Shown here one piece after another: positions 4,039 through 61,536 of a DNA stretch of 64,000 nucleotides (position 1 is its first letter; each line of letters starts with the position of its first letter). The notes below the pieces were generated by a model. The model made no database searches. It saw only the letters and a list, made by a program, of their open reading frames with translations, and had not been told where the DNA came from. A program made the position numbers and the translations under genes. The stretch is from Planctomycetota bacterium (GTDB lineage: Bacteria > Planctomycetota > Phycisphaerae > Phycisphaerales > Phycisphaeraceae). The stretch spans positions 248,001 through 312,000 of the forward strand of contig JAIOPN010000014.1 in the NCBI GenBank assembly GCA_021413865.1. Reading direction: 5' to 3'.

Positions 4039-6801
4039 TTACACCGTCGCGTCGTCCGCCGCTTCCTCGGACTCGGGGGTCACGGCGGCGGGGCTTGCGG
4101 CCGCATCGCCATCGGCCGAGACGATGCGCGGCACGTAATCATCACCCACCGGCCGGCCCTCGACGGTCTTGATCACCGGCTGCGGGTGCGCCGCCTCGTG
4201 CGCCGCCAGCGCCGTCTCCAGGTCCGCCTGCTTCTTCTCGTCGATGCTCGTCCAGCCCATGCGGCCCCGGCACTTGGGGAACGCCGAGCAGCTCAGCCAA
4301 GGCCCGCGCGCCGAGCGCCGCAGGTTCATCGGGCTGCCGCACTTCGTGCATACCAGGTCCGTCACCAGCGGCGGCGGCTTGGGCGAAACCACGATCCCCT
4401 TCTTCGCATCTAGCTTCACGATGCCCTTGCACTTGGGGTAGTTCTTGCAGCCCAGGAACGGCCCGAACCGGCCCACGCGCCGCGTCATCCCATCGCCGCA
4501 CAGCGGGCAGGCGATGTCCGACAGCTCCGGCTCCTGCGGGTTGCCCTCGCGGTCGATCGGCGCGGCGTAGTCGCAGTCCGGGTATCGGCCGCACGACAGA
4601 AACCGCCCATTGCGCCCGAAGCGATAGACCGTGGGCGCGCCGCACTTGCCGCACTTGAACGGCGCGGGCTCCATCTCCGCCTTGGCGTGAACCATCGACT
4701 CGTGCGCGTCGTCCAGGTTCTTCTTGAACGGGCCGTAAAAATCCTTCAGCATCGTCACCCAGTCGTGGTGCTCCTCCTCGATCTTGTCGAGCTCGAGCTC
4801 CATCGCGCGGGTGTAGGCCACGTCCATGATCTGCGGGAACGCCTCGCACAGTTTCGCGGTGACGACCCTGCCCAGGTCGGTCGCGTAGAGACGGCGGTCG
4901 TTGCGTGACATCGGCGAGACGTACTTGCGGTCCTGGATGGTCTGGATGATCGCCGCGTATGTGCTGGGCCGGCCGATGCCTTCCTCTTCGAGCTTCTTCT
5001 GCAGCGACGCCTCGGTGTAGCGCGGCGGCGGGCTGGTGAAGTGCTGCGTCGGGTCCACGTCGAGCGCGGCCAGCGGCTGGTTTTCCTGCAGCTTCGGCAG
5101 GATCGCCTCGTCACCGCCGGGAGTGCCCGAGACGCGGTAGAAACCGTCGAACGCGATCATCGAGCCGGTGGACTTGAACACCGCATGGCCGACCGGCGCG
5201 CTCCCCTTGACCTCGATCAGCACGGTCGTCGAATCGACCTCGGCGTTGACCATCTGGCAGGCGATGAACCGCTCCCAGATGAGACGGTAGATCTTGTTCT
5301 GCTCCTCGCTGAGGTACTTGTGCACGCGGTCGGGGGTGAGGTCGGCGTCGGTCGGGCGGATCGCCTCGTGGGCCTCCTGCGCCGCCTTGTTGGAGCTGGT
5401 GAAGAAGTTGGGCTTCTCGGGCAGGTACTTGTCGCCGAAGGTCTTGGTGATGTACCCGCGCGCCATCGTCAGCGCCTCGGCCGACAGGTGCGTCGAGTCG
5501 GTGCGCATGTAGGTGATCAGACCGGTCGGCCCGCCGAGGGTCTTGAGGTCGATACCTTCATACAACTGCTGGGCGATGCGCATGGTGCGCTGCAGGCCGA
5601 AGCCCATGCGTGTGGAGGCCGTCTGCTGCAACGTGCTGGTAATGAAGGGCGCCGGGGCGCGGCGGCTGGTGCGGCGCACCTGGATCGAGCGCACCTTCGC
5701 CTCGGGCCGACGCCCGACCGCGCCGCGGAAAACCACCAGAAACTTCGCGGGGCCGCGGCCCTTGGGGTCCTGCGTCTCCTCTTCTTTTTCGACGACGTAG
5801 CCCAGCGCCTTGGCGACGGCGATCGCCTGCTCGCGGTGCTCCGCCTCGAACGGCTTGCCATCCACCTCCATCAGCTCGCCGCGCAGGCAGGCCCGCTGCG
5901 AGAGCCAGATCAACCGGTCTTTGAGCGACGGGCCGTCGAAGCGTGAATTGCTGACCTCGACCTTCGCGGGCAGGGCCACGAGGAACTCGCGCCACGCCTT
6001 GGCCAGGCCGTCCGCCTTCGCCAGATCGGTCGCGAAAATGCCGGAAATCTTCCAGTATTCCTCGGGCAGAAACGCGTCGATCTCCTGCTCGCGCTCGACC
6101 ACGAGGCGCGTCGCCACCGACTGCACGCGCCCCGCGCTCAGGCCGCCGGCGACCTTCTTCCAGAGCAGCGGCGAGACCTGGTAGCCCACGATACGGTCGA
6201 GGATGCGCCGCGCCTGCTGGGCGTTGACGCGGTTCTCGTCGATCGGCCGCGGCTTGGAAAAGGCGTTCTGGATCTCCGCCTTGGTGATGGCGTTGAACAC
6301 CACGCGCTTCGACTCGCTCACCGGCACATCCAGCGCCTGCGCCAGGTGCCAGGCGATCGCCTCGCCCTCGCGGTCCAAGTCGGTCGCGAACCAGATATCC
6401 GCGGCGCTCTTGGCGGCGCGGCGCAGGTCGGTGACGGTCTTCTTCTTCTCCGCCATCACCTCGTAGGTCGGGGCAAAATTGTTCTTGAGGTCCACGCCCG
6501 GCACCGGGTTGTCCTCGCGCTTGGTCCCCTTGGGCGACCGGGCGGGGAGGTCACGCACGTGGCCCACGCTGGCCATCACGATGTAGTCGGAGCCCAGGTA
6601 CTTGTTGATCGTCTTGGCCTTGGTGGGCGACTCGACGATGACCAGGTGCTTGCCCGCGGCGGACTTGCCGCGCTTGCCGCCGGCGGCGGGGGCTTCGGGC
6701 GCATCGACGGCGTCAACCGCGTCGATCGCCGGTTCGGCGGCGCGGGCTCGGCCGGAGGTCTTGCCACCGGGCTTGCGGGTTGTTTTGACGCCTTTGGCCA
6801 T
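4039..6801 (-). CDS. topA: DNA topoisomerase I (type IA)
   Basis: 920 residues. Type IA topoisomerase relaxes negatively supercoiled DNA through a 5'-phosphotyrosine intermediate. The Toprim domain begins KHLVIVESPTKAKTI (about residue 51) and contains DLDREGEAIAWH; the active-site tyrosine is Y431 in GLITYMRTDSTH. The C-terminus has three C4 zinc ribbons (CGKCGAP, CPLCGDG, CTKCGSP, each with a second CX(n)C pair). The start at 6801 (MAKGVKTT) is preferred over a start 34 residues upstream because the upstream part resembles no topoisomerase. Residues 1-50 are a basic, Ala-rich extension. The gene converges with the secreted protein gene on its left. Confidence 0.97.
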   Translation of the reverse strand: MAKGVKTTRKPGGKTSGRARAAEPAIDAVDAVDAPEAPAAGGKRGKSAAGKHLVIVESPTKAKTINKYLGSDYIVMASVGHVRDLPARSPKGTKREDNPVPGVDLKNNFAPTYEVMAEKKKTVTDLRRAAKSAADIWFATDLDREGEAIAWHLAQALDVPVSESKRVVFNAITKAEIQNAFSKPRPIDENRVNAQQARRILDRIVGYQVSPLLWKKVAGGLSAGRVQSVATRLVVEREQEIDAFLPEEYWKISGIFATDLAKADGLAKAWREFLVALPAKVEVSNSRFDGPSLKDRLIWLSQRACLRGELMEVDGKPFEAEHREQAIAVAKALGYVVEKEEETQDPKGRGPAKFLVVFRGAVGRRPEAKVRSIQVRRTSRRAPAPFITSTLQQTASTRMGFGLQRTMRIAQQLYEGIDLKTLGGPTGLITYMRTDSTHLSAEALTMARGYITKTFGDKYLPEKPNFFTSSNKAAQEAHEAIRPTDADLTPDRVHKYLSEEQNKIYRLIWERFIACQMVNAEVDSTTVLIEVKGSAPVGHAVFKSTGSMIAFDGFYRVSGTPGGDEAILPKLQENQPLAALDVDPTQHFTSPPPRYTEASLQKKLEEEGIGRPSTYAAIIQTIQDRKYVSPMSRNDRRLYATDLGRVVTAKLCEAFPQIMDVAYTRAMELELDKIEEEHHDWVTMLKDFYGPFKKNLDDAHESMVHAKAEMEPAPFKCGKCGAPTVYRFGRNGRFLSCGRYPDCDYAAPIDREGNPQEPELSDIACPLCGDGMTRRVGRFGPFLGCKNYPKCKGIVKLDAKKGIVVSPKPPPLVTDLVCTKCGSPMNLRRSARGPWLSCSAFPKCRGRMGWTSIDEKKQADLETALAAHEAAHPQPVIKTVEGRPVGDDYVPRIVSADGDAAASPAAVTPESEEAADDATV

Positions 6802-6962
6802 ACGTTCGCGAGGGCGGGTCGTCCGCCTCCATATAAGGATGCCGTGCGCTTCATTCGCCCAAAAAGGGCGTGTCACTTGAGCAATCGTAGGGAACCTTGT
6901 CAAGCCTAAGGGTACAAGGTCCCGTAATTACGGCACTTATGGGGTTTCCACGAAAACCGCCC

Positions 6963-43919: not shown

Positions 43920-44684
43920 TTACGCGGGGAAGTCGATGCCCGCCTCGCCGCGGGCGCGGTTGTAGGCCTCGTCGTCGCCGTGGTAGTTGGGCGCGCAGGG
44001 CGTGAGGCCCAGGCCCAGGAGCTGGCGGGTGAGCGGGTCGGTGGATTGGGCGAGCTCGGCGGGGAGCGGCTGGGTGAAGTAGTTGTCCATCCGCTTGATG
44101 AAATACCGGCCGAAGTAGGGGAAGAGCGCCAGGCGCGCCTGTTTGGAATTGTTCTGCGCCCCGGAGTGGAGCAGCGCGGCGTCGAAGAAGACGGCGGTGC
44201 CGGCGCGGACGGGGGCGAGCACCTCGCCGGGCGCGGGCTTGTCGTTGGGCGGCGCGGGCGGTTCATTGCGGTGGCTGCCGGGGATCACGCGGAGCTGGCC
44301 CATCTCCGGCGTCATGTCGTAGAGATAAATCCCCGTGTTCATCGACAGCGTTTTGTCGCACGTGAACCTGACGTCGCGGTGCCAGCCCACGCCGCCCGCC
44401 CCGGCGGCGGTGTAGAGCAGGTCGAGCGCCAGGAGCTGCACGTCCGGCCCGATCAGGTCGCGCGCGGACTCGACCAGCCTCGGGAGCTTGAATATCTGGC
44501 GGAACGGGGCGCGGCGGTAGAGCACGCGCTCATGCCAGACGCGAACCTGCGTGTCGGCCGGATCGGCGGCGACCAGCGCCAGCGCCGCGGCGCGGATGTC
44601 GTCGAGCAACGCGCCGGTGATCACGTCCTCGAGGACGAGATAACCGTTGGCGTCGAAGAAGGATTTCTGTGCGTCGCTGAGCAT
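43920..44684 (-). CDS. Phytanoyl-CoA dioxygenase (PhyH) family protein 3
   Basis: 254 residues. Iron ligands H102 and D104 (GWHRDVRF), distal H173 (LLHSGAQNN), R184 probable 2-oxoglutarate ligand. LRVIPGSHRNEPP is the PhyH signature. It lies downstream of the two tandem PhyH genes on the same strand, separated by the heptamer repeat (44711-44824). It is less similar to those two than they are to each other. Substrate unknown. Confidence 0.9.
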   Translation of the reverse strand: MLSDAQKSFFDANGYLVLEDVITGALLDDIRAAALALVAADPADTQVRVWHERVLYRRAPFRQIFKLPRLVESARDLIGPDVQLLALDLLYTAAGAGGVGWHRDVRFTCDKTLSMNTGIYLYDMTPEMGQLRVIPGSHRNEPPAPPNDKPAPGEVLAPVRAGTAVFFDAALLHSGAQNNSKQARLALFPYFGRYFIKRMDNYFTQPLPAELAQSTDPLTRQLLGLGLTPCAPNYHGDDEAYNRARGEAGIDFPA

Positions 44685-44710
44685 GGGAGAGAAAGTCCAG
44701 GGTCGGTTAG

Positions 44711-44824
44711 TCCAGAGTCCAGAGTCGCGGAGCGGATTCAGAGAAGAACCACCGCCCCTCCGACTCTGGACTCTGGACTCTGGACTCTGGACTCTGGACT
44801 CTGGACTCTGGACTCTGGACTCTG
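44711..44824. repeat. Heptamer inverted/tandem repeat (family B)
   Basis: Nine uninterrupted copies of GACTCTG (44762-44824) are preceded at 44711-44726 by TCCAGAGTCCAGAGTC, their reverse complement, so the whole can fold into a large hairpin. It fills the gap between two PhyH genes. The same element occurs inside dnaE (60469-60558). Confidence 0.92.
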
Positions 44825-44833
44825 GCTATTTTA

Positions 44834-45667
44834 TTACGCCGGCTGGAGCTGGTTTTCCGGCATGTTTTCGAGCCGGCCCGCCCAGAGGGAGTGGTCGAAC
44901 TTGTCGTTGCCGGTGACGTAGCGCCAGAACTTGATGCGGTTGATCATCTCGATGCGCCACTCGTTGCCCATCCAGCCCTGCGCCCGGCCGAGGATGTGGT
45001 GGACTTCCGGGTTGTCGATGTCGTCGGTGTTCCAGAGGCGGACCTGCTTGACCGTCGGGTTGAGGCGGAGCTTGAACATGTACCGCATCTTGTCGGTGAG
45101 GTTGGGCCTGGCGCAGTGCCAGATGCCGCAGTGGGTGGCGAAGAGCGTGCCCGCCTTGCAGATCGCGGCGGTCTGGCCGACCAGGTTCTGGTAGCGGGAT
45201 ATCTCGAAGGTGTTGACGCGGCGGAAGTGGCTGCCGGGGATGATGAGCGTGCCGCCCATCTCCTTGGGCGTGTCGTGGGGGAAGTAGTAGAACTGGACAT
45301 CGAACGCCCAGGCGCGGGTGTCGATGATCGAGTCCTGGTGGAGGTGCTGGCCTCCGATCGTTTTGGGGGCGACGGTGTGGCCGGCGTGGTGGTCGTAGAG
45401 CGGGTCGGGGCCGACGAGGCTGTGGATGATGCCCTGGACCTGCGGCAGGCGCCAGACCGCGCCCAGGCCGTTGGACTCGGCCCACATCCGCGAGAGCGGC
45501 GTGCCCGACTTGCTGTAACCGGTCCATAGATTGAACGACTTGTCGTCGATCTCGCGCATGGCCTGCTGGTTGACCTCGTCGGGGACGAGGCCCTCGAACA
45601 CCAGCACGCCATTGGCGGCGAACTCGGCCATCTGTTTGGTCGTCAGGAGGTGTTGTTTGTCGGTCAT
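44834..45667 (-). CDS. Phytanoyl-CoA dioxygenase (PhyH) family protein 4, tandem paralogue
   Basis: 277 residues. Iron ligands H110 and D112 (HLHQDSIID), distal H184 (GIWHCARPN), R195 likely 2-oxoglutarate ligand. EMGGTLIIPGSHFRR is the PhyH signature. It has the same length and opening (MTDK..LLT.KQMA.FA) as its neighbour at 45736-46569, and a C-terminal segment starting RYMFKLRLNPTVKQVRLWNT is identical in both, so they arose by duplication. No signal peptide, so cytoplasmic. Confidence 0.93.
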   Translation of the reverse strand: MTDKQHLLTTKQMAEFAANGVLVFEGLVPDEVNQQAMREIDDKSFNLWTGYSKSGTPLSRMWAESNGLGAVWRLPQVQGIIHSLVGPDPLYDHHAGHTVAPKTIGGQHLHQDSIIDTRAWAFDVQFYYFPHDTPKEMGGTLIIPGSHFRRVNTFEISRYQNLVGQTAAICKAGTLFATHCGIWHCARPNLTDKMRYMFKLRLNPTVKQVRLWNTDDIDNPEVHHILGRAQGWMGNEWRIEMINRIKFWRYVTGNDKFDHSLWAGRLENMPENQLQPA

Positions 45668-57453: not shown

Positions 57454-60400
57454 CTAATATCGGTCGATGCTCTCGCAGAACTCCTCGTCCGTGGTCGAGC
57501 GGCGCAGCGGGTTGACGACCTGCTGGTCCGCCGCGACGGCGGGGCCGGCGGAAGAGGTGATGCGCGGCATGCCCGACAACCGGCAGCAGCCGGGTGAGTG
57601 CAGCACGGTGGCGACGCGTGCGGGCAGGTCGGGATCGACGGCCACGCGGACACCGTTAAGCCGCATCCGCGCCGCGACGCCGTTCTGCACAACGGTGACG
57701 AAGACCTGCGCGATGGGCCCGCCGCGCTGGCCGGTGGATTGCCTCAGCAGGTCACGCAGCCGCCCCAGGTCGGCGGCGAGTGCGGCGTCGATGGCGACGG
57801 GCTTGCGGCCATTCCCATTTCCGTTGCCGTTCCCATTGCCGTGCGCCGCGTCATCGCCGTTGGCCGTGACCGTGATGTCAACGCTCTGCGTCAGCTCGGC
57901 GACGGCGCGCTCGATGGGGATCACGCGGTCCACGATGATGCTCGGTTCCTCGCGGCGGCGGTCGATCTTGCCCTTGATGAACACCAGCGAGTCCTGCTGG
58001 AGCAGCGGTGCGGCGACTGCGAAGGTGTCGGCGAAGCAGACGCCGTCGATCTTCCCCGTCGGGTCCTCGATGCTGATCATCGCCATCTTCTGGCCGGCGC
58101 TGCGGCCGTTCTTCACGAAGGTGTGGCGGACGGAGGTGAGCATGCCGCCGATCGTGACCTGCACGTCGGCCGCGAGCTTCCGCACGTCCGCCGTCCACGC
58201 GGAGCCGAACCGCTCCAGCGTCTCGCGGTGCTGGTCCAGCGGGTGGCTCGAAATGTAGAACCCCAGCACGCTCTTCTCGTGCTTGAGCTTCTCGTTGCCG
58301 GCCCAGGGCGTGGTGCGCGGGAGGGTGACGGCGTGGTCGGCGGCGGGCCTGCCCTTGGCGGCGTCGCCGGCGATGGAATCGAAGAAGTTGAGCTGGCCCG
58401 AGTCCCGGTCCGCGGCGGCGCGCTGGCCGGACTGCATCGCGGCGTCGATCGCCTCCACCATCGCGGCCCGCTGGTCCATCCCGTGCACCGAGTCGAACGC
58501 GCCGCACTTGACCAGCGCCTCGATCGTCGCCCGGTTCACCAGCCCCATCGGGGCCCGCTCGCAGAAATCGAAGAGGCTCTTGAACGGCCCGTCCTTCTCC
58601 CGCGCCTCGATGATCCCACGGATCGCCTTCTCGCCCACCCCCTTGACCGCCGACAGGCCGAAGCGGATGTGCCCGTGGTTGGCGTCGCGCGGCTGGCCCT
58701 TGTCGAACACGACGGTGAACCCCACGTCCGACAGGTTGATGTCCGGCTGCCGCACCTCGACGCCGCGGTGCCCGTCGGGGGACATCACGCGGCGGCACTC
58801 GCCGATGTACTCGACCACCTTCGTCAGGTCCACGGATTCATACGTCAGCACCGCCGCCATGTACTGCACGGGGAAGTACGTCTTGAGGTATGCCGTCTGG
58901 TACGCCACGATCGCGTAGCCCGTCGAGTGCGACTTGTTGAAGCCATAGCCGGCGAACTTAAGGATCAGCTCGAAGAGGTCTTCCGCGGCCTTGGGCGTCA
59001 GGCCCTGCTTCTCCGCCCCCTCGATGAACTTGGGCCGGACCGCGTCGATGTCTTTCTGCTTCTTCTTGGAGATGTTCTTGATCAGCGTGTAAGCCGCGCG
59101 GAGCGGGATGCCGCCCAGGCCGTGCACGATCTGCATGACCTGTTCCTGGTAGACCATCACCCCATACGTCTCGGCGGTGTACTGCTCGACGATGGCGTGC
59201 GCCCTGGGCACCGCCTGCCGGCCGTGCTTGCGGTTGTTGTAGTCGGGGATGAGGTCCATCGGCCCGGGGCGGAAGAGGGCGTTGGCGGCGATGAGGTCCT
59301 CCAGCCGGTCGGGCTTCATGCTCATGAGCAGCCCGCGCATGCCGTCTGACTCGAACTGGAACACGCCCGCCGTCTCGCCGCGCCGAAAAAGATCGAGCAC
59401 CTTCGGGTCGTCGTAGGCGAGACGGTCGAGGTCGAGCGGATCAAATAAAGGATCGGGGCTCGGCGCGCCGCCCTGCCGCCCCGCGAGGACCGTGTCGCGG
59501 ATCGTCTCGGACGAGAGCGAGGCGCGGATGAGCGTCTTGGCCTTCTCGATGATCGAGAGCGTGCGCAGGCCCAGGAAGTCCATCTTGAGCAGGCCGACCT
59601 TCTCGACGGTCGGGCCGTCCCACTGCGTGACGAGCTGGTTGCTGCCCGCGGGCTGATAAAGCGGGATGATGTTGTCGAGAGGCTGTGTGGCGATGACGAC
59701 GCCTGCGGCATGCACGCCCGCGTGCCGGGTCAGCCCCTCGAGCCGCTGCGCGGTGTCGAGCAGGCGGCGCGTGATGGGGTTGTCGTCGTAGAGCTTGCGG
59801 AGGTCGGGCTCCTGGTCGAGCGCCTCGCCGATCGTGGTGCCCAGCGCCTCGGGGATGAGCTTGGCGATCTTGTCCACCTCGGGCAGCGGGATATTGAGCA
59901 CGCGGCCGACGTCGCGGATGGCGGCGCGGGCCTTGAGGGTGCCGAAGGTGATGATCTGCGCGACGTGGCCGTACTTCTGCCGGACGTAGTCGATGATCGC
60001 CTGCCGGCCGTCCTGGCAGATGTCGATATCGATGTCGGGGTATTCGCTGCGGTCGGGGTCGGTGAAGCGCTCGAAGAGCAGGCCGTAGGTGATGGGGCAG
60101 GCGTTGGAGAGGCCCAGGCAGTAGCCGACCATGGTGCCGACGCCCGAGCCGCGCGCGGTGGCGGGGATGCCGCGTCGGCGGGCCTCGTTGACGAAGTCCC
60201 AGACGATGAGGAAGTAGGCCGAGATGGTCTTGTCGGCCAGGACTTTCAGCTCGCGCTCGAGCCGGGCGCGGTGGGCGTCGGTGACGCCCGCCTCGCCGTA
60301 TCGCCAGATCAACCCGGCGTTGGCCAGTTCGCTCAATGCGGTGTCGCACTGCGATTTGAGCTCGGGTGCGGTGATCGCCTTGTCGTTCTGCTCATCGAAG

Positions 60401-61455
60401 GGGAGGAGCTTGAAGCGCGAGCAGAAGGATTGGTACCAGGCGGTGGAGCCGACGGGGTCGGTGCTAAGCCCAGAGTCCAGAGTCCCGAGTCCAGAGTCGG
60501 GAGTTCCGGAGGGAGCATTTCTCTTGACTCTGGACTTTGGACTCTGGACTCTCGACTCTTCCGTTTGCAGCTTTTCAATCTTGACCACCGGGGCGTAGCT
60601 GGTTTTGAAGTCGAGCTGCACGTCGCACATGTCGGCGATGCGCACCGTGTTGGCGCAAGCCTCGCCCCAGCGCCGGTGGTCCCACGCGGCGTACATCTCG
60701 GCGTTCGACTTGAGATACAACTGCGTCGGGTAACGCATCCGCGATTCGTCGCTCACCAGCTTGCCCGTCGAGATGCAGCAGAGCGCGTCGTGCGGCGCGT
60801 GGTCGTCGGCCAGGAGGAAGTGCACGTCATTCGTCGCCACCACGCCAACGCCCAACCGATCGGCCAGGTCCATCAACTCGGGGTTCACCTTGTCCTGCTC
60901 GACGATGTGCTTCTGCACCTCGATGAAAAACCGGTCCGGGCCGAACACGCTCAGGTAAATCTCCGCGATCTCTTTCGCTTTTTTGCGGTTGTCCTGCATG
61001 ATCGCCGCGGGGATCTCACCGCCCAGGCAGGCGCTGGTGCAGATCAGCCCCTCGGAGTGGGCCTTGAGCACGTCCTTGTCGATGCGCGGCTTGTAATAGA
61101 AGCCCTCGGTGTAGGCGATCGAGGAGAGCTTGAGGAGGTTGCGGTAACCGACGCGGTTCTGCGCCAGCAGGAGCAGGTGGTGGCCGCCGTCCTTCACGCC
61201 CGTGGTCTGGCGGTCGTGTCGGCTGCCGGTGGCCATGTAGGCCTCGATGCCCATGATCGGCTTGACGCCGTGGGCGACGGCCTTGTTGTAGAAATCGACG
61301 ATGCCGAACAGGCAGCCGTGGTCCGTCACCGCCAGCGCGGACTGGTCGAGCTCCTTGGCGCGCTTGACCATGTCCTCGATACGGCAGGCGCCGTCGAGCA
61401 GGCTGAACTGGCTGTGCACGTGCAGGTGCACAAATCGGTTGGGCGCGTCGGCCAT
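57454..61455 (-). CDS. dnaE: DNA polymerase III alpha subunit
   Basis: 1333 residues, longer than E. coli DnaE (1160). The PHP domain starts FVHLHVHSQFSLLDGACR; the catalytic palm holds D475 and D477 (YPDIDIDIC). Further polymerase motifs are ARGSGVGTMVGYCLGLSNAC, FRPGPMDLIPDY and KSHSTGYAIVAYQ. The C-terminal OB domain is around 1130-1200, followed by a Gly/Asn-rich stretch (GNGNGNGNGNGR). Residues about 299-333 (ESRVQSPKSRV...DSGLGTLDSGL) are encoded by a heptamer repeat element with no counterpart in other DnaE. The start at 61455 (MADAPNRF) precedes the PHP domain directly. Confidence 0.96.
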   Translation of the reverse strand: MADAPNRFVHLHVHSQFSLLDGACRIEDMVKRAKELDQSALAVTDHGCLFGIVDFYNKAVAHGVKPIMGIEAYMATGSRHDRQTTGVKDGGHHLLLLAQNRVGYRNLLKLSSIAYTEGFYYKPRIDKDVLKAHSEGLICTSACLGGEIPAAIMQDNRKKAKEIAEIYLSVFGPDRFFIEVQKHIVEQDKVNPELMDLADRLGVGVVATNDVHFLLADDHAPHDALCCISTGKLVSDESRMRYPTQLYLKSNAEMYAAWDHRRWGEACANTVRIADMCDVQLDFKTSYAPVVKIEKLQTEESRVQSPKSRVKRNAPSGTPDSGLGTLDSGLSTDPVGSTAWYQSFCSRFKLLPFDEQNDKAITAPELKSQCDTALSELANAGLIWRYGEAGVTDAHRARLERELKVLADKTISAYFLIVWDFVNEARRRGIPATARGSGVGTMVGYCLGLSNACPITYGLLFERFTDPDRSEYPDIDIDICQDGRQAIIDYVRQKYGHVAQIITFGTLKARAAIRDVGRVLNIPLPEVDKIAKLIPEALGTTIGEALDQEPDLRKLYDDNPITRRLLDTAQRLEGLTRHAGVHAAGVVIATQPLDNIIPLYQPAGSNQLVTQWDGPTVEKVGLLKMDFLGLRTLSIIEKAKTLIRASLSSETIRDTVLAGRQGGAPSPDPLFDPLDLDRLAYDDPKVLDLFRRGETAGVFQFESDGMRGLLMSMKPDRLEDLIAANALFRPGPMDLIPDYNNRKHGRQAVPRAHAIVEQYTAETYGVMVYQEQVMQIVHGLGGIPLRAAYTLIKNISKKKQKDIDAVRPKFIEGAEKQGLTPKAAEDLFELILKFAGYGFNKSHSTGYAIVAYQTAYLKTYFPVQYMAAVLTYESVDLTKVVEYIGECRRVMSPDGHRGVEVRQPDINLSDVGFTVVFDKGQPRDANHGHIRFGLSAVKGVGEKAIRGIIEAREKDGPFKSLFDFCERAPMGLVNRATIEALVKCGAFDSVHGMDQRAAMVEAIDAAMQSGQRAAADRDSGQLNFFDSIAGDAAKGRPAADHAVTLPRTTPWAGNEKLKHEKSVLGFYISSHPLDQHRETLERFGSAWTADVRKLAADVQVTIGGMLTSVRHTFVKNGRSAGQKMAMISIEDPTGKIDGVCFADTFAVAAPLLQQDSLVFIKGKIDRRREEPSIIVDRVIPIERAVAELTQSVDITVTANGDDAAHGNGNGNGNGNGRKPVAIDAALAADLGRLRDLLRQSTGQRGGPIAQVFVTVVQNGVAARMRLNGVRVAVDPDLPARVATVLHSPGCCRLSGMPRITSSAGPAVAADQQVVNPLRRSTTDEEFCESIDRY
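60469..60558. repeat. Heptamer inverted repeat (family B) inside dnaE
   Basis: CCAGAGT-type heptamers (60469-60498) and their complements, GACTCTGGAC with variants (60526-60558), flank a central 28-base spacer. All are in frame with dnaE, so the reading frame stays open through the element. Confidence 0.9.
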
Positions 61456-61536
61456 CCCTGGCTTTCTCAAATCAGGCGTGCGTGACTCCACTCATATCAC
61501 CTACGCCGGGCCGTGTCGAGCAAAAATAGAACCCGC

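Follow-up and report, generated by a model that had tools for sequence, protein, structure and literature searches.

How does a gene for a replicative DNA polymerase come to carry, in frame, an array of seven-base repeats folded back on itself? The question is raised by dnaE, the gene for the DNA polymerase III alpha subunit, in a stretch of 64,000 nucleotides (the window; positions 248,001 to 312,000 of contig JAIOPN010000014.1) from Planctomycetota bacterium assembly GCA_021413865.1, which comprises 4.37 Mb in 67 contigs and is called G000 here, other G numbers being related genomes. The preliminary description of this DNA reported GACTCTG/CAGAGTC heptamers arranged as an inverted repeat within an open dnaE frame. 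Palindromes within coding sequence are best known from Rickettsia. We consider it likely, with a probability of roughly 0.7, that the dnaE segment is a copy of a dispersed, lineage-private palindromic element, similar to the Rickettsia palindromic elements (RPEs), that is tolerated in permissive protein loops.

The dnaE gene (57454–61491, minus strand), assigned by Pfam and NCBIfam matches, encodes a product of 1345 amino acids if translation starts at the GTG at 61491, or 1333 if it starts at the ATG at 61455. The in-frame element occupies 60467–60560, as judged by sequence, repeat search, folding and unit count, so that the start proposed earlier, 60457, lies about 10 nt too early although the element itself is real. 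In plus-strand order it consists of four CAGAGTC-type units (60471–60498; GACTCTG on the minus strand, with one variant, GACTCGG, where a tryptophan codon would fall), a filler or loop of 27 nt (60499–60525), not clearly homologous to the filler in any of 14 other copies, and five plus-strand GACTCTG-type units (60526–60560; GACTCTG, GACTTTG, GACTCTG, GACTCTC, GACTCTT). The repeat search returned an inverted repeat with 37-nt arms at 60467–60503 and 60521–60557 that are 84% complementary, and the reading frame continues unbroken across it, so both the inverted arrangement and the open frame are borne out. The encoded segment, ESRVQSPKSRVKRNAPSGTPDSGLGTLDSGL, corresponds to residues 298–329 or thereabouts, numbered from the ATG at 61455, close to the 299–333 given previously. 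Folded as DNA the element reaches −29.3 kcal/mol (z −5.9) and as RNA −62 (z −7.7), and in neither case did any of 200 shuffles equal it.

In the protein, Pfam recognizes the PHP, DNA_pol3_alpha, finger, HHH_6 and OB domains, with the insert lying between PHP (10–183) and the polymerase domain (from 374), and the NCBIfam model NF004226 for Pol III alpha is matched at 1186 bits against a cut-off of 1002. A search of its own genome with DnaE reported a single match, 10 of 31 candidates having been scored. When DnaE is aligned to the solved chain 2hpi, a Thermus enzyme, the match ends at chain residue 304, where the insert starts.

A second element of the same kind is present in the window at 44709–44828, between the minus-strand genes 43920–44684 and 44834–45667 (delimited by a simple coding score), and the earlier placement of an intergenic copy at 44711–44824 was therefore correct. 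It has a left arm of two exact minus-strand units preceded by AGTC (44713–44726), a 35-nt filler (44727–44761) and a right arm of nine exact plus-strand GACTCTG units (44762–44824). Scanning the window at lags 5–12 yielded runs at lag 7 only (n=3), all of them within these two elements, and the same scan of five codon-shuffled copies of the window yielded none. The window contains 21 occurrences of GACTCTG where 8.8 would be expected, and none of 100 shuffles reached 21.

A genome-wide search for GACTCTG arrays and their host genes, suggested in the preliminary description, reveals a dispersed family. The exact 14-mer GACTCTGGACTCTG has 79 matches in G000, compared with none for its reversed control and none in 40 relatives. 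Exact and near matches collapse to at least 22 places, of which 22 were analysed and seven lie inside genes; as the near matches were the first 100 of 170 listed, highly degenerate copies may be missing. The pattern is AGTC-(CAGAGTC)n - filler - (GACTCTG)m-GACT, with the same orientation wherever two arms were found. Exactly four units are present in 20 of 37 arms, and the arms with at least nine units (9, 9, 11 and 15) are all intergenic (unit counts omit one of the 22 places, L032 at 3005). The AGTC part of the unit is nearly constant, being conserved in 171–175 of 176 units at each position, and the first three bases are more variable; at the outer junctions, A at −4 and G at −3 are each found in 33 of 38 cases. 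Hairpin folding gave z values from −3.5 to −11.0 in all nine copies that were folded.

In the 15 two-armed copies measured (which leaves out two, L019 at 3004 and L032 at 3260) the fillers span 27–72 nt, with a purine-rich start (mean 0.80) and a pyrimidine-rich end (purines 0.23). Alignment of all 105 pairs gave a mean score of 7.9 against 6.3 for shuffled fillers, with maxima of 13 and 12, and thus no clear homology; copying of the filler was rejected, as the alignments exceed shuffles just slightly, and that slight similarity may reflect the common purine-to-pyrimidine bias. Variants are found in 16 of 37 units at the second position from the outside versus 24 of 101 at positions 1, 3 and 4, a weak hint of common descent. 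Several intergenic copies are 5–47 bases away from where a neighbouring gene starts, and some directly adjoin the stop of the following one; such copies may, by their position, affect expression.

By the coding score, nine of the 22 places overlap a gene, two of which (L018 and L019) touch its stop only. Two-armed copies are found in dnaE, purL, dnaG, recJ, mutS and tgt (named by both Pfam and NCBIfam), and a one-armed copy in a gene of the peptidyl-arginine deiminase family (named by Pfam only), so that the element's ability to sit in genes, previously surmised from dnaE, extends to five further conserved genes in frame and, in one-armed form, to a seventh. For each of the six interrupted proteins, one or more NCBIfam models bearing its name are matched above their cut-off; this does not hold for all the models matched. 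The six two-armed copies have unit-to-unit spans of 90–126 nt, and in folding all six segments surpass their codon shuffles (z −4.9 to −9.9). With respect to the chain 5akb, Escherichia coli MutS, the aligned blocks of MutS end at residue 604 and resume at 609, the insert replacing four residues just before the GPNMxGKS motif; in TGT, aligned blocks end at residue 152 of chain 6h42 and resume at 155. The inserts of DnaG and RecJ either split the Pfam family domain or are contained in it.

Alignment with relatives, also suggested in the preliminary description as a test for precise absence of the segment, gave a divided answer. The DnaG loop has 50 residues here versus 4–21 in eight relatives, and the RecJ loop 41 versus 4–17 in seven, so that clean absence is seen in both. 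This is not the case for DnaE, whose linker has 45 residues here versus 18–38 across the 27 relatives measured (two of 30 rows, L149 and L168, were left out for lack of an anchor match, and three of the 30, L140, L149 and L168, are wrong open reading frames). The DnaE insert is thus an addition to a variable linker rather than to a clean empty site.

The in-gene copies also bear marks of selection at the protein level. Since 7 = 1 mod 3, every frame of a pure array gives one identical stop-free cycle, QSPESRV on one strand and DSGLWTL on the other. The earlier statement that the heptamer is free of stops in all frames accordingly holds for pure arrays but not for the seven in-gene elements, which contain no stops in the true frame and three in the off-frames. 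In the same seven copies there are no tryptophan codons in the true frame, 11 in the +1 frame and nine in the +2 frame; for 20 such codons placed in random frames the probability of none in the true frame is (2/3)^20, about 3e-4. Protein-level selection is visible in this absence. In mutS and purL, CGG stands at the place of the tryptophan codon and the opposite arm has a matching, silent change (proline CCG for CCA), by which the hairpin is kept. Unit-to-unit spans are multiples of three in five of six in-gene copies versus three of nine intergenic ones. From these codon patterns the inserts appear to be translated with the rest of the protein. That translation skips the segment is less likely, as the frame is kept in all six genes and tryptophan is avoided.

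Related genera carry other repeats in the same loops. We scored the DnaE linker for periodicity at lags 4 to 13 in 29 genomes including G000, and compared the loops at the five other sites in six to eight relatives each (TGT being read in six of eight and RecJ in seven of eight). Strong period 7 was found in the DnaE linker of three of the 29 genomes (G000, z 8.7; G008, z 10.0; G023, z 6.8) and weak period 7 in G018 (z 2.7); no other lag rose above 3 in any of the 29. The units differ by genome: GACTCTG, ACATCGA, ACATCCC and AATCCGA. The MutS loop contains AACTCGA in G023 (z7 4.8), GGGATTN in G008 (6.5) and an octamer in G024 (z8 6.2); the PurL loop contains AACTCGA in G023 (6.3) and octamers in G024 (z8 6.3) and G018 (z8 3.7); the DnaG loop contains AACTCGA in G023 (4.5) and AATCCGA in G018 (4.0); and G008 has G/C-rich heptamers in RecJ (z7 4.1) and TGT (z7 3.3, with z8 3.7). 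Altogether, 13 periodic inserts, including three DnaE linkers with the weak one of G018, were found in four of eight relatives (G008, G023, G018 and G024). In the remaining four (G017, G007, G048 and G004) every z at the sites scored is below 3 (TGT of G004 excluded), and their loops that are too short to score hold 4–7 residues. Different tandem units therefore recur at the same loops in related genera. This goes beyond the preliminary description, whose view of a repeat-derived insert in the replicative polymerase, of the same kind as the intergenic copy, is otherwise supported by the dispersed family and holds overall.

The period-8 units in the MutS and PurL loops of G024 and G018 lie at L203 1963–1997, L235 504–611 and L236 394–427 (GGCTCGGT, GGCACGGA, GGCTCGAT). 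As 8 = 2 mod 3, octamer arrays also give one reading cycle in all frames. Lag 4 reaches z 3.9 and 3.0 in two octamer inserts of G024, because 4 is half of 8. A second DnaE loop, at about residues 660–700, contains heptamer runs in G008, G024, G020 and G042. A scan of 69 gene loci (320,752 bases, including the G000 locus itself and a few overlapping loci) at lags 5, 7, 8, 10 and 11 found 22 runs, of which 17 are at lag 7, four at lag 8, one at lag 11 and none at lags 5 or 10; 18 of the 22 lie in the loops described here, by coordinates read by hand.

Genome-wide dispersal of a private unit is also clear in G023, where the exact AACTCGA pair AACTCGAAACTCGA has 58 matches in about 39 places (grouped manually), against none for the reversed control and none in eight other genomes; seven of these places are minus/plus pairs 53–117 bases apart. 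In G008, GGGATTNGGGATTNGGG matches 12 times, as does its reversed control, a comparison of little value since the two patterns overlap by design. The pattern ACATCSM has matches in 13 of 29 genomes, including 10 in G008 and 32 in G024, and in G006 the control matches exceed the true ones (six versus one). The impression, gained by eye, that the inserts of the relatives are palindromic was not generally upheld, as folding supports it in four of 13 (DnaE of G008, G023 and G018, and PurL of G024); many inserts of relatives thus have a single arm or are too degenerate for a hairpin to be recognized. Only in G000 is the palindromic form firmly established.

These observations can be combined as follows. 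An element of the family pattern, typically with four units per arm, would have spread through the genome by some process; copies falling into genes would survive only at permissive protein loops and only if the frame is kept, and a stop-free unit of length 1 mod 3 would ease such in-frame insertion. The insert would be transcribed and translated within the host protein, presumably at little cost to the host, and selection would remove its tryptophan codons. In related genera, other 7- or 8-mer units occupy the same loops, with or without a clear second arm.

Several points weigh against this reading. The fillers lack clear homology between copies, unlike those of a mobile element copied whole, and the loops of dnaE, purL and tgt are long or variable in relatives too, so that a clean empty site is not seen there. 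The span of the tgt copy is not a multiple of three, and translation is inferred from codon patterns. Among the relatives, folding at z ≤ −2 against codon shuffles is seen in four of 13 periodic inserts versus three of 20 non-periodic ones. The genomes compared belong to other genera, in which a recent move would not show. A search confined to two families, the Y1_Tnp transposases and the RVT_1 reverse transcriptases, found no enzyme with a link to the element.

Some of these points are what would be expected of the strongest competing explanation, namely that fast-evolving loops each make a tandem heptamer of their own by local replication slippage, with the inverted arm copied across a hairpin by template switching and no mobility involved. 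Loop lengths do vary among relatives, the fillers are unrelated, a clear hairpin is missing from nine of the 13 periodic inserts in relatives, and the matching variants in the arms of mutS and purL (CGGAGTC opposite GACTCCG) are such as template switching would leave. However, one unit is found at 22 places in G000, and another at about 39 in G023, and each is absent from the relatives searched; AACTCGA is common to MutS, DnaG and PurL of G023, and independent slippage would not be expected to pick a single 7-mer. A unit shared by the genes of one genome but not between genomes argues against purely local slippage, which we consider unlikely; dispersed lineage-private elements fit the sharing of units better.

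Two further explanations invoke an enzyme, and both appear improbable, to about the same degree. According to one, a repeat-synthesizing enzyme (telomerase-like, a reverse transcriptase of the DRT type or another templated polymerase) adds the arrays to the two 3' ends at a break before these are joined across filler DNA. The fixed arm orientation, unequal arms and unrelated filler would suit such repeat addition at both break ends, and G000 has one RVT_1 gene, scored as Drt8 at 4e-157; no support for an enzyme was found beyond that. DRT10 reportedly synthesizes tandem repeats on a noncoding RNA template, with a unit of 9 nt in one system (PMC12632851, a preprint); it or telomerase-like synthesis could in principle produce short tandem DNA units. 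No link to such a system was found here, where an enzyme with a template would be expected in every bearer: G008 and G018 (82% complete) bear inserts but have no RVT_1 match, G007 has a reverse transcriptase but no periodic insert at the six sites, and 3447 bases around the G000 gene contain no heptamer template beyond chance (one match with two mismatches; chance mean 0.7). A link to the reverse transcriptase was rejected, given the lack of a nearby template and the two bearers without an RVT_1 match. The gene itself (L241 1105–2712, contig C11) encodes a Drt8-type defence reverse transcriptase (PADLOC E 4e-157) and is the sole RVT_1 match in the assembly; the neighbouring gene encodes a putative phosphatidyltransferase-like membrane protein.

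The other explanation treats the arms as terminal inverted repeats moved by a transposase encoded elsewhere in the genome, as in miniature inverted-repeat transposable elements (MITEs), including the repetitive extragenic palindromes (REPs) mobilized by REP-associated tyrosine transposases (RAYTs). The arms and the fixed outer ends of the G000 copies do amount to terminal inverted repeats, and there are five Y1_Tnp genes in the assembly. Three of these genes are near contig ends; the flanks retrieved for the five contain no heptamer arrays (a single unit was seen in L014), unlike REP/RAYT systems, in which the repeat flanks its TnpA-REP gene, and a transposase link was rejected on these grounds. 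The ends are AGTC, rather than the GTAG and CGTC tags named in the title of PMC3733652. Two of the loci (L012 and L013, bases 1–1947, on contigs C64 and C6) have Y1_Tnp at identical positions, 103–447, each at a contig end, the arrangement that a repeated insertion sequence would leave where it interrupts an assembly. Chance or an assembly artefact, that is, low-complexity sequence mistaken for an insert, is the least credible explanation of all: repeats can misjoin in an assembly of 67 contigs, but six interrupted proteins each pass a family model cut-off, six genes retain their reading frame, repeats occupy the same loops in other genomes, and shuffles give none.

The GACTCTG heptamer is not confined to this phylum. 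Three exact units were found in at least 102 stretches of GTDB contigs (a scan run without a reversed control); among the matches listed are Acidobacteria, Chloroflexi, Verrucomicrobia, Bacteroidetes, Planctomycetes, Proteobacteria, cyanobacterial genera and others, and 44 tracts lie in long open frames. Thirty of these 44 frames were run against Pfam, and 18 matched a family and 12 did not. Eleven one-armed tracts among the 18 lie between or inside Pfam domains; their hosts are UvrA (twice, L086 and L112), UvrC, leucyl-, methionyl- and glutamyl/glutaminyl-type tRNA synthetases, a HemN-like protein, UbiD, the 2-oxoacid dehydrogenase E2, QueC and hydantoinase B. The two UvrA tracts share an interval between the interaction and DNA-binding domains. 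CAGAGTC is in the sense orientation (QSPESRV, without tryptophan) in 11 of 11 bracketed tracts versus six of 12 frames without a Pfam family; it is also in sense in six more of the 18, L041, L054, L075, L133, L134 and L135, whose tracts are not enclosed by the domains as printed. The last of the 18 is an AcrB-family gene (L066) interrupted by a two-armed copy. We put forward only tentatively, and regard as rather doubtful, a wider proposition: that many bacterial lineages have private, fast-changing 7- or 8-mer elements, often palindromic, that are continually written by some machine, and that DnaE, DnaG, MutS, RecJ, UvrA and UvrC repeatedly carry the products as translated loops at the same sites across lineages.

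In IMG/VR viral contigs, the 21-mer matched three stretches and its reversed control one, which indicates that heptamer arrays of other sequence occur there too. One contig filed as viral (L137, IMGVR_UViG_3300035688_000092) contains at least three GACTCTG/GACTCTC arrays (848–921, 5607–5641 and 6730–6815). Two of these arrays have both arms, and the contig may be a piece of bacterial DNA or a phage that carries its host's repeats. Two other viral contigs (L136 1326–2111 and L138 118–1449) appear by eye to encode similar protein regions in which three heptamer units occupy one position (KAESRVQSPE); this may be an insert conserved in a phage protein.

Among known systems, RPEs offer the closest comparison. 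As described in excerpts of two reports, they are palindromes of about 100–150 bp that occur between genes and in frame in conserved protein genes (PMC2229807, PMC10969869), and in at least one tested case, gmk, the RPE is translated (PMC2229807). The G000 copies are likewise palindromic in the nine folded, have unit-to-unit spans of 90–126 nt in the six two-armed in-gene copies (about 105–150 bp for RPEs), and are both intergenic and in frame, with six two-armed copies and one one-armed copy in genes out of 22 places. They differ from RPEs, as far as the latter are described in these excerpts, in consisting of tandem heptamers with unequal arms, unrelated filler and a lineage-private unit, and in that the same loops of related genera hold other units. 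No RPE model is among the NCBIfam matches of the six proteins at E ≤ 1e-10, a threshold that is strict for a short insert, in a library whose RPE content was not checked.

Dispersed heptamers have been described as well. For TAACTGA, excerpts of PMC4679880 give 169 direct sets and one indirect repeat, with copies in open reading frames mostly near protein ends apart from one exception, a beta-prime-like frame; the heptanucleotide repeats GGGAATC and GGGGAYT are reported in PMC4692102. Common to these repeats and to G000 are 7-nt units dispersed in some lineages, near genes and in some cases within open reading frames, and the repeat of G000 is indeed a lineage-specific tandem of 7-nt units. 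In contrast to TAACTGA as excerpted, inverted pairs are the norm in G000 and copies are found inside core domains. The tandem repeats of Borgs, according to excerpts of PMC9879509, similarly give in-frame peptide repeats within genes, but their in-gene units are always divisible by three, whereas here the units are of 7 or 8 nt and the frame is kept by the total length. In the open-access literature we found no report that joins RPE-type coding palindromes with heptamer repeats.

Distinctive of the coding palindromes here is the frame-friendly, stop-free unit of length 1 mod 3, together with the recurrence of different repeats at the same loops in related genera. This opens two questions to testing, namely by what means short palindromes spread where no transposase is visible and in what way proteins acquire new loops. 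Variable loops in proteins used as phylogenetic markers may be derived from repeats and non-homologous between genera.
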